Assembly: GCA_021819085.1 (NCBI GenBank)
Contig: JAKASJ010000020.1
Location: 1 to 62,248, forward strand
Source of the DNA: Pseudomonadota bacterium
Lineage (GTDB): Bacteria; Pseudomonadota; Gammaproteobacteria; Acidiferrobacterales; UBA6901
Direction: 5' to 3'
Length of the DNA stretch: 62,248 nt
A model generated the notes under the pieces. It saw nothing but the letters and a program-made list of their open reading frames with translations. It was not told the origin of the DNA and searched no databases. The stretch's first letter is position 1. The number at the start of each line of letters is the position of its first letter. Positions 22,308 to 27,577 of the stretch are shown in pieces. Position numbers and translations under genes: made by a program.

Positions 22308-24047
22308 CTAGCGTTCGTTCATTTTGTCCACCAGCGCGTGCAGTTCGCCGGTGTGGCGCGCATTCAGCACATCTTCTGCGAACCTGCCCAGCTCGGTGAG
22401 GTCGCTTTCGCGCACAATCCTCTTGATTTCCAGCAGCGCGGACGGGTGCATGCTGAATTCGTCCAGGCCCAAGCCCAGTAACAGGCGTGTATAACGCACG
22501 TCGCCGGCCATTTCACCACACATGGCGACGGGAATGCCGGCCGATTTCCCGGCGCGTATCGTCATTGAAATCAGCCGCAACACCGACGGGTGCAGCGGAT
22601 CGTAGAGATAGTTTACCGCCTCGTCGACGCGGTCGATCGCAAGTGTGTACTGGATCAGATCGTTCGTCCCGATCGAAAAAAAATCCAGGTGTGGCGCAAA
22701 CAGGTCCGCTGAAACGGCCGCTGCCGGTACCTCGATCATGCCGCCAATCTGCGTTTCCGGATCGAATGGCTGCCCCTGGCGTGTCAGTTCCGCCTTGGTC
22801 TCCTCGATAAGATCCAGAACGCGGAACATTTCCCCGAGGCTAGAAAGCATGGGGATCATGATACGCACTTGACCCAGCGCCGAAGTCCGCAGTATTGCCC
22901 GAAGCTGCGGCCGGAACAGTGATGTGTCGTGCAGGCACAGCCGCACGGCACGCAAGCCCAGGGCCGGATTTACGGTGATCGTTTCGCCGCCCCGACTGTT
23001 GCTATCGATGCGCTTATCAGCACCGAGATCAAGCGTGCGTATCGTTACCGGTTTTCCGGGGATGGCCTTCACGACCTTCGCATAGGCCCGGTATTGTTCT
23101 TCTTCGTCAGGCAGATCGGGCCGGTTCATGAACAGAAACTCGGTACGGTACAGCCCGATTCCCTCGGCCGCGACCTTGTTTGCTGCTTTGATGTCATCCG
23201 GCAGTTCTATGTTTGCGTAAAGCTTGATCGCGCATCCGTCACGTGTTTCCGAGCGGCTGGCCTTGATGGTCTCCAGTTCGCGCTTGAGCTGGACTATCCT
23301 CTTCTGCCGGTGCTGGTACTCGGCGACGACGCCGGGCTCGGGCAGCACAATCAGGACGCCGAGCTTCCCGTCGACGATCAGCTGTTCGCCGCTGCGTATG
23401 GCGCGCGTGGCATTATGCACCGCGACGATGGCAGGGATTTCAAGGCTGCGAGCCAAGATCGCCGTGTGGGAAATCGGACCTCCTAGATTGGTCACGAATG
23501 CCGCGATGCGGGTGTGCTTGAGCAGCACTATATCAGCGGGCGTGAGGTCGTTGGCGACCACGATTTGCCCGTCAAGCGCATCCGTTATCTGTTCATGTTC
23601 CTCATCGTTGGACACCAGCAGATTGCGCAGGATGCGGTCTACAACCTGACCGACGTCGGTTTTCTTGCTGCGCAGATAGGGATCGTCCATCTGCTCGAAC
23701 ACGGCGGAAAGTTCATCGCTCTGCGTCTTGAGCGCCCACTCGGCGTTGCATCGTTTCTTGCGGATTGTGTCGACCGGAGCCTCGCATATCATCTTGTCGT
23801 GCAGAATCAGCAGATGTGTGTCGATAATGCTCGAAATTTCGGGAGGCGCGGACTTCGGGATGTGGTCGCGTATGCTCTCGAGCTGGCTTCGTGCGGAATC
23901 GATTGCCGCAGTGAAACGCCTGATCTCTCCTTCGATCAGGTTCTCCGGCAATGCATACTCCGGCACCTCCGGCCGTTCGCGGTGCAGCACGTAGGCCTTG
24001 CCGATGGCAATTCCGCTGCTGACGCCGGTTCCGTGCAGTACGAGCAT
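22308..24047 (-). CDS. ptsI: PTS phosphoenolpyruvate-protein phosphotransferase (enzyme I)
   Basis: 579 residues. The phosphorylated His lies in GGPISHTAILARS at about residue 194; the PEP-binding TIM-barrel follows with YRTEFLFMNR and the catalytic Cys in MCGEMAGD. It lacks a GAF domain, so it is an EI of the short type rather than E. coli PtsP. It takes phosphate from PEP and passes it to the HPr encoded 5 bases upstream. Last gene of the hprK-rapZ-EIIA-HPr-EI set. No sugar permease is nearby, which suggests a regulatory PTS. Confidence 0.92.
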   Translation of the reverse strand: MLVLHGTGVSSGIAIGKAYVLHRERPEVPEYALPENLIEGEIRRFTAAIDSARSQLESIRDHIPKSAPPEISSIIDTHLLILHDKMICEAPVDTIRKKRCNAEWALKTQSDELSAVFEQMDDPYLRSKKTDVGQVVDRILRNLLVSNDEEHEQITDALDGQIVVANDLTPADIVLLKHTRIAAFVTNLGGPISHTAILARSLEIPAIVAVHNATRAIRSGEQLIVDGKLGVLIVLPEPGVVAEYQHRQKRIVQLKRELETIKASRSETRDGCAIKLYANIELPDDIKAANKVAAEGIGLYRTEFLFMNRPDLPDEEEQYRAYAKVVKAIPGKPVTIRTLDLGADKRIDSNSRGGETITVNPALGLRAVRLCLHDTSLFRPQLRAILRTSALGQVRIMIPMLSSLGEMFRVLDLIEETKAELTRQGQPFDPETQIGGMIEVPAAAVSADLFAPHLDFFSIGTNDLIQYTLAIDRVDEAVNYLYDPLHPSVLRLISMTIRAGKSAGIPVAMCGEMAGDVRYTRLLLGLGLDEFSMHPSALLEIKRIVRESDLTELGRFAEDVLNARHTGELHALVDKMNER

Positions 24048-24052
24048 GGCGT

Positions 24053-24322
24053 TTACTCTTCCTCGCCGAAGCGGTTATCCATCAAATTGCGCAAGGCCTG
24101 CATTGCTTCGTCCTCGTCTTTTCCGTCGACGCGCAGGATAAGCTGGCTTCCTTGGCCGGCAGCCAGCATCATGATTCCCATGATGCTCTTTCCATTCGCC
24201 TGGTGGCCATTGCGCTCCAGAATGATGTCACTCTTGAACTGCGACGCAAGATTGACGAACTTTGCCGAAGCGCGCGCATGCATGCCGAGTTTGTTGACTA
24301 CCGTTATGGTTGCATTCTTCAT
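24053..24322 (-). CDS. ptsH: Phosphocarrier protein HPr (NPr type)
   Basis: 89 residues. The EI-phosphorylated His15 is in KLGMHARASAKF, and the serine target of HPr kinase is in NGKSIMGIMML (Ser46 region). Both are intact, so it should be a substrate of EI and of the HprK encoded at 25648. The start overlaps the EIIA stop (ATGA). In this operon type HPr works in nitrogen or cell-envelope regulation, not sugar uptake. Confidence 0.92.
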   Translation of the reverse strand: MKNATITVVNKLGMHARASAKFVNLASQFKSDIILERNGHQANGKSIMGIMMLAAGQGSQLILRVDGKDEDEAMQALRNLMDNRFGEEE

Positions 24323-24732
24323 CGACGCGGCTCCGCCTTGCGCAGTTCCACCGGTGCCGACACTATGCCTTCGGGGCCGCCCGTCAGAGCTTTTGCGACG
24401 AGCCCCGCCATGTCCAGGCCGCGGTAATTCAGTATCCGGATGAGCATCGGAAGGTTCACGCCGCTCACGAGTTCGATGTGACTCTTTCTGAGGAGGCGGC
24501 AGGCCGTGTTGGTGTGGGACGCGCCGTAGATGTCAGCCAGAATCAGCACCCCCTGGCCATGGTCGAGCTGCTTCAGCCGTTCGGCGATAGCCTGCTCCAG
24601 AAGCTCCTGCGGCAGTTCGTAGTCCACAGGAAGGGTCTCGACGCCAGGCGGCAATTCGCCCAGAACGTGTTCCGCCGAGCGCAGTAATCCCTTGCCGAAA
24701 TCTGCCTGAGCCAGAATCAACAGACCTATCAT
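24319..24732 (-). CDS. PTS EIIA component, mannose-type fold, lacking the active-site His
   Basis: 137 residues from MIGLLILAQADFGKGLL. In family members this start reads MIG-x-LI-x-THG, where the His at position 9 or 10 receives phosphate from HPr. Here the codon is CAG, giving Gln9. The rest of the fold is present, including VLILADIYGASHTNTACRLL and the late GVNLPMLIRIL. Start and stop overlap rapZ and HPr by 4 bases each, so the gene is kept in the operon. It may act as an unphosphorylated regulator, or phosphorylation may be lost. ptsN is also absent nearby. Confidence 0.85.
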   Translation of the reverse strand: MIGLLILAQADFGKGLLRSAEHVLGELPPGVETLPVDYELPQELLEQAIAERLKQLDHGQGVLILADIYGASHTNTACRLLRKSHIELVSGVNLPMLIRILNYRGLDMAGLVAKALTGGPEGIVSAPVELRKAEPRR

Positions 24733-25583
24733 GCCAACTCCCGGTGTCGAACCTGCGCGTTTACCCCTTTGCGCGAAAAGTACTCTGCCAGCCTCTTGAC
24801 CAGATATACCGAGCGGTGCTGGCCGCCGGTACACCCCAAGGCGATGGTCATGTAGCTGCGATGTTCTGCCTCGAAGCTCGGCAGCCAGTTCTCAAGGAAG
24901 TCGCATAGCTGCCCAAACATGGCTTGCACCCGCTTGTCTTTCTCGAGGAACGCCATGACCGGCGGGTCGAGTCCTGTCAGCTTGCGCAGGTCGGCCTCCC
25001 AGTAGGGATTTGGAAGGCAGCGAACATCGAAAACGAAATCTGCATCAAGCGGGGTCCCGTTTTTGAACCCAAAGGATTCGAACATCAGGGTCATTCCCTC
25101 CGTATTATCGCTGCGCGCGAAGTTATTCACCAGATGGCGCAGCTCGTGCGGGGTGGTATGGGTAGTGTCGACCCGTAGTGCGGCATTGGCAGACAGCGGC
25201 ACGAGCAGCGCTTTCTCCTGACGGATTCCATCCAGCAGGGGAATCCCCCGCCTGGTGAGCGGGTGCTTGCGGCGCGTAGCCTTGAAACGCGTGACCAGGA
25301 CGGATTCCTCCGCCTCGAGAAAAATGATCCTATAGCTCAGTCCAATGGATTCGAGCTGGGCCAGCCCGGTCGGCAGGGCGTCAAGGAAGCGGTGAGTGCG
25401 CGCGTCGATGCCGACTGCCGCGTTGCGCAGTTCGTCGCGCCCGCTTTCCATGATCTGGCGCGCAAAGTGCGGCAGCAGCGCCGCCGGGAGGTTGTCTATG
25501 CAGTAGAACCCCATATCCTCCAGCGCCTGGAGCGCGATACTTTTTCCGGATCCGGAGAGCCCGCTGACTATCAGAAATGTCAT
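24729..25583 (-). CDS. rapZ: RNase adapter protein RapZ
   Basis: 284 residues, exactly the E. coli length, from MTFLIVSGLSGSGKS; the upstream extension to 25661 is not family-like. The Walker A motif GLSGSGKS (about 8-15), the middle EAEESVLVTRFKATRRKHPL and the C-terminal IALGCTGGQHRSVYLVKRLAE are diagnostic. RapZ binds glucosamine-6-phosphate and RNA, guiding RNase E to GlmZ sRNA and so controlling glmS. Other members have mostly a nucleotide-binding role. It lies 64 bases after hprK. Confidence 0.94.
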   Translation of the reverse strand: MTFLIVSGLSGSGKSIALQALEDMGFYCIDNLPAALLPHFARQIMESGRDELRNAAVGIDARTHRFLDALPTGLAQLESIGLSYRIIFLEAEESVLVTRFKATRRKHPLTRRGIPLLDGIRQEKALLVPLSANAALRVDTTHTTPHELRHLVNNFARSDNTEGMTLMFESFGFKNGTPLDADFVFDVRCLPNPYWEADLRKLTGLDPPVMAFLEKDKRVQAMFGQLCDFLENWLPSFEAEHRSYMTIALGCTGGQHRSVYLVKRLAEYFSRKGVNAQVRHRELA

Positions 25584-25647
25584 GTCTGGAACCGCCCCGG
25601 CGCAGGGGCTGCAGGTGTCGCCGGAATACCGATGATCCGGTATGTGA

Positions 25648-26598
25648 TCATTTCTCGGCACCGTGCATTGCCGCTTCCTGCCGCTTCACTATGTCGTCCA
25701 GCGGGTTCACTCCGCGCATGCGGAGGATATGGCTGCGGGTCGCGACTTCGACCAGAACCGCAAGATTTCTGCCGGGCGCCACGTAAAGCACCACTTCGGG
25801 AATCTCGACGTCGAGGATGCGCCGGGTCTTCTGTTCAGCCTGCAGGCGGTCTATGCTGCCCAGCCGCCTGCGTTTCAGCTGCTCGAGACGCACAATCAGT
25901 CGCAGGGTCTTCTCCGAACGCACTGCGGTTTCGCCGAACATGGCGCGCACATTGAGTATCCCAAGGCCGCGTACTTCGAGGAAATCCCGCAAGATGCTCG
26001 GGCTGCGCCCAAGCAGCACGTCAGGGCCGGTTCGGAAGAATTCGACGGCATCGTCGGCGATGAGGCGATGATTGCGGCTCAGCAATTCCAGCGCCAGTTC
26101 ACTTTTGCCCATGCCGCTTTCGCCGGTTAGCAGTACGCCCACGCCCATTACCTCCAGGTATACTCCGTGCAGTGTGACGTGCGCAGCTAGCGCAGCGGCA
26201 AGGTAATGCTGCAGGTGGTCGATCAGCTTGGGGCTGGGCAACGGTGAAGACAGCAGTGGCAATTTCATCGATTCAGATGCCGAGCGCAGGTCGGTGGCCA
26301 CCTTTTCGCCATTGGCCACGACCACCACGGCGGTTGTGGCGCAGCTGAACAAATCACGGACGGCCTGGCGGCGTTTTGCCACCGAGAGTTTCCGCAAATA
26401 GGCGGTCTCGGCACTCCCGAGAACCTGCACGCGGTTGGGGTGCACGAAATTCAGGTGACCGACCAGCGCCATGCCTGGGAATTTCGCAGTCGCCGGTTCC
26501 AACAGCCGGTCCCGGCCGGCATGGCCAGAAAGCCACTTGAGCTTCAGGGGCTCGTGCTGGGCCTCAAACAGGCCATTGGCGGTAAGAATCGTGGTCAT
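25648..26598 (-). CDS. hprK: HPr kinase/phosphorylase
   Basis: 316 residues. The Walker A TGESGMGKSE is near residues 158-167 and the HprK signature LEVRGLGILNVRAMFG near 208-223. The enzyme phosphorylates and dephosphorylates HPr on Ser46. Proteobacteria with rapZ-EIIA-HPr-EI often carry hprK, where it regulates the PTS rather than catabolite repression via CcpA. In related genomes ptsN lies directly upstream; here a gap of about 980 bases is found instead. Confidence 0.94.
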   Translation of the reverse strand: MTTILTANGLFEAQHEPLKLKWLSGHAGRDRLLEPATAKFPGMALVGHLNFVHPNRVQVLGSAETAYLRKLSVAKRRQAVRDLFSCATTAVVVVANGEKVATDLRSASESMKLPLLSSPLPSPKLIDHLQHYLAAALAAHVTLHGVYLEVMGVGVLLTGESGMGKSELALELLSRNHRLIADDAVEFFRTGPDVLLGRSPSILRDFLEVRGLGILNVRAMFGETAVRSEKTLRLIVRLEQLKRRRLGSIDRLQAEQKTRRILDVEIPEVVLYVAPGRNLAVLVEVATRSHILRMRGVNPLDDIVKRQEAAMHGAEK

Positions 26599-27577
26599 AT
26601 GTGCAGTCGTTTGTGCCGCATGCTCGCAAAGTCAATGTTCGGGGACAAGACATTGTGACCGGCGCATTTATTCCGACCAGGCATCCGCTGATGTCTGCAG
26701 TGCTCCGCGCCATATCGCCGATGCCGCAAGCCACCTCGTCAGGCCCCCGCCGCCGATGTCTGGCAGCGTTCTCCCGTGCCGGGTGCATGGCCCCCGGGTC
26801 CCTGTAGCGCGCCGCGCAGACAATGAATCTGCCGGACTGGCGCGCCGTGTACGGTTACCGGATCTGTGTGTCCGGCCCGGCTGGACGCTGTGCGGGGAGG
26901 CCAAAGACCGTGCCCGTCGCCAACGCTGGCCAAAAGGGGGGAAGGGCCCGTTGGAGTGGAACAGCCAGCGGCGCTCCCGCGCGCGGCTGGCGCGTTCTGG
27001 GGCCCGGCTGCGCAATGCGGCGGCAACCCGCAGCAGGGGTTCCCGTTCAAAACTGGAGGGCATGAAGGAATCGCATAAAGACTGTGTGATTAGCCAGTAT
27101 AATTAAACTGTCTGATCCGGGCACGCCATACACCCCCAAAGCCTGGAGCGCGACCGCACTGTCCGGGTAAATATCAGACGCTCAAGCAGTCCGCAAGGTT
27201 GCCACCGATGTTGCACGCCACGCAAGCCAGGTCCTGGGCCGTGGGCGAGAGGTTTTTCCGGACGGTTACCGAGGCAAGTGCGCTGCGATCCACCTGGAAG
27301 CGGTCCATGCCCCTCAACATGTCACGCTAGCACAATGGCGTCGCAATTACGAAAAATCAATATCTTGGGGCATCCAGTGGACGTCGCGGCAGGCATAGAG
27401 CGACCGTCACGGAGACGCTGCAAAGAGGGCAACTGGCACCGGAATGGGTTGCCAGCCAGTCTGGCTGGTGTCTTCGTGGAACGCTGTAAATCAGAAGTGA
27501 GGTGCCGGCGCCTCGGTCACGTAGTCCACGTGCCTCGACGCCGGGCGCGCGCCGTGGTAACCGGCGCGCAAGCCGTG
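26599..27577. other. Gap between hpf and hprK; expected place of ptsN
   Basis: 979 bases without an EIIA-Ntr (PtsN) gene or a recognisable remnant. The minus-strand ORF 26668-27063 is Arg/Ser/Pro rich with no ribosome-binding site and is taken as a shadow. One short ORF (27174-27308, listed separately) has a good Shine-Dalgarno. TATAAT at 27098-27103 (+) overlaps TATACT (minus, 27101-27096), two good -10 boxes sharing bases, though -35 boxes are poor. Local base composition is less codon-like than the flanks. Confidence 0.5.
27174..27308 (-). CDS. Possible 44-residue Cys-containing protein
   Basis: ATG at 27308 preceded by GAGGGG about 5 bases upstream. The product starts MDRFQVDRSALASVTVRKNL and contains CVACNIGGNLADC (Cys29, Cys32, Cys41), a CxxC plus a third Cys. 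An ATG 12 bases upstream is also in frame. A possible promoter lies upstream on the minus strand: TTGATT followed after about 17 bases by CATTGT. Not recognised; the support is ribosome-binding site, motif and its place in a gap that otherwise looks non-coding. Confidence 0.4.
   Translation of the reverse strand: MDRFQVDRSALASVTVRKNLSPTAQDLACVACNIGGNLADCLSV

Follow-up and report, generated by a model that had tools for sequence, protein, structure and literature searches.

Putative relocation of the phospho-accepting histidine in the EIIA-Man-type protein of a regulatory PTS operon from the Acidiferrobacterales

Phosphorylation of an EIIA-Man-like protein by P-His-NPr has been obtained in vitro with the Brucella proteins, and His9 is proposed as the site in the part of that report available to us (PMC2937029). 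The surroundings of the phospho-accepting histidine are best described for E. coli IIA-Man. According to the accessible portion of that study, the imidazole of His10 has as neighbours Gly71A, Ser72A, Pro73A and Phe36A, together with Met23B and Leu24B of the other subunit; Asp67 is hydrogen-bonded to His10, Ser72 binds the phosphoryl group, Asn75 is a likely contact of HPr, and Met23B touches both His10 and HPr (PMC7587183). In the EIIA of S. agalactiae, the sections of the source at hand list Asp63, Gly67 and Pro69 as contacts of His9, with the same spacing as in the E. coli set (PMC6837340).

The protein studied here is encoded in a genome of the order Acidiferrobacterales, two cultured members of which are sulfur-oxidising autotrophs according to the available text of PMC5024460. 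The window (the whole stretch of DNA analysed, 62,248 nucleotides) carries on its minus strand an operon composed, in order, of hprK, rapZ, the EIIA-Man gene and the genes for HPr and EI; no permease gene is present in this operon. Its features are as follows:

22308-24047, minus strand: Enzyme I (EI), His194 intact
24053-24322, minus strand: HPr, the phosphate donor, His15 and Ser46 intact
24319-24732, minus strand: EIIA-Man-type gene, 137 amino acids plus stop, PF03610, His9 replaced by Gln; ATG at 24732-24730, stop at 24321-24319
24514-24516, minus strand: EIIA codon 73, CAC (His), candidate new phospho-acceptor; Pro in ordinary EIIA-Man
24532-24534, minus strand: EIIA codon 67, Asp, which pairs with the phospho-His where structures have been solved
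24667-24669, minus strand: EIIA codon 22, His, aligned with E. coli Met23
24706-24708, minus strand: EIIA codon 9, CAG (Gln), position of the classical phospho-acceptor (His10 in E. coli IIA-Man)
24729-25661, minus strand: RapZ, reading frame starting at GTG, NCBIfam match from residue 30
25648-26598, minus strand: HPr kinase/phosphorylase HprK, P-loop GESGMGKS present

The EIIA gene overlaps by 4 bases both rapZ (24729-24732) and the HPr gene (24319-24322), and its translation is MIGLLILAQADFGKGLL. These overlaps, the glutamine at the codon of the phospho-accepting histidine (24708-24706), EI His194, HPr His15 and Ser46, and an intact HprK had all been pointed out in the first-pass annotation, and each was found as described.

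The protein matched the PF03610 (EIIA-man) profile with 53.4 bits, above the cut-off of 21.4. This was its sole Pfam match at E <=0.001, with no EIIA-Ntr (PtsN, PF00359) domain, and its scores lay below the equivalog cut-offs of sugar-specific IIA models (62.8 versus 130 bits for NCBIfam AgaF, 47.7 versus 98.35 bits for TIGR00824). An AF2 model (8 sequences, pLDDT 79) was compared to E. coli IIA-Man (1pdo; Z 16.9, rmsd 4.0 over 125 residues) and to S. pneumoniae IIA-Man (6fmg; Z 16.3), and Foldseek recovered the IIA-Man fold with E 1.1e-8. As for the residues of the classical family, the histidine at the end of beta1 (His9/10) is replaced by Gln9, while Asp67 and Ser/Thr72 are both present, as is each of them in 51/51 members of the order carrying His73 (H73-type). 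A search for another EIIA in the genome, which is 99.98% complete, had been suggested; it returned this gene as the single PF03610 member and no PF00359 protein, the EIIA families covered being these two. Taken jointly with the move of the phospho-accepting histidine discussed below, we lean towards reading the operon as a regulatory PTS with an EIIA-Man-type end acceptor.

About 980 bases separate hprK from hpf (26599-27577). Four reading frames tested in this interval gave no Pfam match above cut-off, and tblastn with the PtsN proteins of four relatives detected no ptsN remnant in it (best E 3.5). In two relatives that possess ptsN (G026 and G013), the gene lies ~1.9-2.0 kb before EIIA, by distance just past rapZ and hprK; on account of this distance, ptsN may have been lost from the hprK-hpf spot of the window.

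The classical phospho-accepting histidine is gone from this EIIA and the gene is under selection, as had been proposed: compared with the genes of four genomes from the same genus, it shows dN/dS values of 0.09-0.17. These four genomes also encode Gln9, which makes five genus members including the window. At the level of the order, 52 of the 57 genomes searched carry an EIIA-Man gene; residue 9 is Q in 32 of them, E in 7, Y in 4, H in 4, F in 2, and D, L or T in one each, and His9 is therefore missing from 48/52. To put these figures in context, 145 sequences from the class outside the order were read (22 first, 24 new best-scoring, 59 from weak-scoring genomes and 40 others; two targeted groups aside). 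Among them 139 were His9/Pro73 and three Tyr9/His73 (family f64), the remaining ones being one Tyr9/Ser73, one Gln9/Pro73 and one truncated sequence. An EIIA-Man match exists in 218 class genomes, 63 of which lie outside this reading. The two targeted groups comprise nine sequences: family f116 gave H9/H73 twice and P9/H73 twice, and the order of G163 gave Q9/H73, H9/Q73, R9/Q73, H9/P73 and H9/A73.

Absence of His9 goes with a histidine at position 73. In 205 EIIA-Man sequences, counted as one copy per genome (G306, for example, has more) and without G155 (truncated, lacking residue 9), His73 was found in 54/57 proteins without His9 versus 5/148 proteins with it, the largest difference between the two sets among all residue/position pairs compared. 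Within the order it is present in 51/52 members, in a loop that reads D-I-Y-G-A-[ST]-H-x-N or nearly so; in the initial 22 sequences from outside the order, position 73 is Pro without exception. The 51 H73-type members of the order share six invariant columns: Asp67, Gly70, His73, Asn75, Gly91 and Met96. The codon of His73 varies among the 59 sequences that have it (CAC 38, CAT 21) and the residue does not, so it is the amino acid that is kept. Asp67 is retained whatever the state of position 9 (57/57 without His9, 148/148 with it). A second histidine, His22, occurs in 48/51 H73-type order members and beside His9 in 20/148 of the His9 proteins.

Three sequences lack His9 and do not have His73: G088 (Q/P at positions 9/73), G383 (Y/S) and G423 (R/Q). 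EI and HPr with intact phospho-histidines are encoded alongside the EIIA of G423 (locus L243; Arg9/Gln73/His22) and that of G383 (L239; Tyr9/Ser73/Ala22). The EIIA of G088 (L081) has Gln9, Pro73 and Arg75; neither HPr nor EI was found in its 12-kb locus, and HPr is on another contig. This EIIA looks like one that lost its histidine without replacement, and is a candidate for an EIIA that truly goes unphosphorylated. G050 (L003), an order member whose neighbour genes place it inside the clade described below, has the ordinary His9/Pro73, either by reversal or by gene transfer, between which the EIIA gene tree does not decide. In G024 (L056, the same contig as L038) the EIIA frame contains one internal TGA and the open part is ~96 residues; a frameshift, a stop or an assembly error is possible.

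The His73 motif was also looked for at the DNA level. A pattern scan of 369 class genomes gave hits in 10, and a reversed-pattern control also gave 10; the hit count alone is therefore uninformative, and weight is given to how each hit reads. Four hits belonged to the order, four were EIIA-Man genes outside it (G163, G165, G281 and G379) and two were not EIIA. The same scan over 398 phylum genomes, class members included, gave 10 with hits (control 4): one was that of the window itself and the other nine encode no EIIA. The pattern misses variants such as DLRGCTH of f64, detected by reading only.

In the HMMER alignment, positions 9, 22, 67 and 73 of the query correspond to 10, 23, 67 and 73 of E. 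coli IIA-Man. From this correspondence and the contacts given in the accessible structural accounts, both new histidines are predicted to sit at places that pack on the old phospho-histidine, position 73 in the same subunit and position 22 in the neighbouring one.

Resolution of the EIIA gene tree was poor (44 starred branches among 202 inner ones), and the history was therefore reconstructed on a tree of the neighbour genes (RapZ, HPr, EI and HprK; 151 genomes, quick LG+G4, SH-aLRT only). Of its 162 initial rows, 11 had too little sequence and were removed, and many of those kept are part-filled (G088, 29%). The order, f116 and f64 form one clade of 58 rows (SH-aLRT 100), whose sister group consists of four genomes, all His9/Pro73 and three of them with His22. 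G163, which is also Q9/H73, falls outside this main clade, a placement based on HPr and EI only. Inside the clade (tree length 12.2) 13 changes fall on position 9, a single one on position 73 and three on position 22; outside it (93 rows, length about 55) the corresponding numbers were 4, 5 and 59. When 126 positions were compared with the protein's own average, position 9 was the most relaxed inside the clade (p 2.9e-5), and the strongest new constraint fell on position 22 (p 8.2e-6); both shifts remain significant after correction for 252 tests.

A two-trait likelihood analysis on the neighbour-gene tree favoured dependent evolution of His9 and His73 (LR 18.6, p 9e-4), as it did after removal of the G163 group and G088 (p 3e-3) and on the weaker EIIA gene tree (p 1.7e-6). 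The stricter independent-pairs test of treekit was not significant, the pairs being too few: the main clade shows essentially a single gain of His73, and the association rests on few independent gains. Five genomes inside the clade (G034, G046, G055, G379 and G422) have both His9 and His73. Read as intermediates, they suggest that His22 came first, then His73, and that His9 was lost last. They may instead be regains of His9, since in the fitted rates of both trees most His73 gain falls after His9 loss and since equal-cost parsimony gives a tie: a clade ancestor bearing His9 requires 7 changes within the clade, and an ancestor lacking it requires 6 there and 1 earlier; with regain of His9 forbidden, 11 losses are needed.

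We favour, with modest confidence and on comparative sequence evidence, the view that the phospho-acceptor has moved from His9 to His73, helped by His22 of the neighbouring chain. In this reading His73, with which the beta3/alpha3 loop begins, would have taken over the function of the ancestral residue that ends beta1, His9. It would still be paired with the buried Asp67 and the phosphate-binding Ser/Thr72, and His22 from the partner subunit of the dimer would probably assist it. His73 would take its phosphate from HPr-His15-P. It may have appeared alongside a still-present His9 that was lost later, the order of these steps being the one tied by parsimony. The retained Asp67, Ser/Thr72 and Asn75 and the intact donor chain are elements that a functional site would require. 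The first-pass annotation had concluded that phosphate has no obvious end acceptor in this operon and that the EIIA may have become an unphosphorylated sensor or a partner of RapZ or HprK, with an alignment placing another histidine in the role as the finding that would speak against it. Given the distribution of His73, that conclusion is probably wrong: as far as can be judged from residues and alignments, His73 fits the role, replacing the proline that packs on the phospho-histidine in the structural accounts accessible to us.

An unphosphorylated EIIA would nevertheless be consistent with part of these data. In this main rival, a refinement of the first-pass idea, His73, His22 of the other subunit and Asp67 would make up either a docking surface or a new binding site, whether for a metal or for some different ligand, in a protein that acts as a sensor or as a partner of HPr, RapZ or HprK. 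Two conserved histidines with an aspartate are typical metal ligands, the residues that replaced His9, including F, L and P, are not phosphorylatable in the same way, and G088 shows that the fold persists without His9 and His73. We hold this explanation to be less likely than the move to His73, for several reasons. Residue 9 itself (Q, E, Y, F, L, T, D or P) is too varied to be a metal ligand. Asp67 and Ser/Thr72, which orient or bind the phosphoryl group, and the HPr-contacting Asn75 are kept, their roles being those given in the available part of PMC7587183. The phospho-sites of EI and HPr are intact wherever the proteins were found: in 68 loci searched (66 genomes, 52 from the order and 14 others, two being counted twice), HPr was detected in 66, always with His15 and Ser46, and EI in 64, always with its phospho-histidine. 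PtsN was found in 19/57 order genomes, all but one of them (18) with the EIIA gene, and in 0/7 genomes of the family of the window; it was not found in 34/52 EIIA-bearing order genomes, some of them incomplete. In those 34, EIIA-Man is therefore the only acceptor of HPr-P found (two EIIA families searched), and the relay would stop at HPr unless it has another acceptor.

It is improbable, in our view, that phosphate is now accepted by His22 of the neighbouring subunit, with His73 as its helper. The equivalent Met23B of E. coli, in the same place, touches both His10 and HPr according to the accessible text of PMC7587183, position 22 is the most newly constrained of the 126, three of the four sister-group genomes are H9/P73/H22, and G423 has His22 alone of the three histidines. 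Against it, G010 (Ala22), G015 (Ser22) and G025 (Arg22) are order members that have neither His9 nor His22, yet carry His73, and the 20/148 proteins with His22 beside His9 indicate that this residue is compatible with a classical site. A sequencing or assembly error at codon 9, a doubt raised at first pass, or decay of the gene can be set aside, since Gln9 recurs in five genus members and in 32/52 order members, dN/dS is 0.09-0.17, the frame is open and the overlaps are tight.

Relocation of the acceptor to His73 would mean that the phospho-accepting histidine has crossed the active site and now belongs to another structural element, in a composite site at the dimer interface formed by His73 from one subunit and His22 from its partner. 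The old, the double and the new state are all found in present-day genomes, and the move would have had at least two origins (the main clade and G163). We advance this fuller picture more tentatively than the move itself. Among the literature matches listed, which mostly leave out subscription journals, no report of a His9 to His73 relocation was present. The phospho-histidine is the defining residue of a PTS domain, and a protein without it is easily taken as inactive; nearly a whole bacterial order would thus be misread as carrying a dead EIIA. A relocated site would also bear on the role of the relay where PtsN was not found. If His73 is indeed the acceptor, this would be a natural migration of a catalytic residue within a phosphorelay, and since genomes in each of the three states are extant, the path would be testable by single-residue changes.

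In WNK kinases, the catalytic lysine is relocated to a neighbouring strand. The likeness with the present case is that a catalytic residue migrates within one pocket; the fold and the chemistry differ. Among PTS proteins, the EIIA-Man-like protein of the permease-less PTS of Brucella belongs to the same family, has the same His9 numbering and the same kinds of partners (EI-Ntr, NPr and HprK), also with the permease absent, but, in the part of the report available, it retains His9, where the protein described here has Gln9 with His73 and His22 (PMC2937029). The IIA-Man proteins of E. coli and S. pneumoniae share with it the fold, Asp67, Ser/Thr72 and Asn75; according to the accessible text they are, in contrast, transporter components phosphorylated on His10, with Pro73 and Met23 at the two positions that are both histidine here (PMC7587183).
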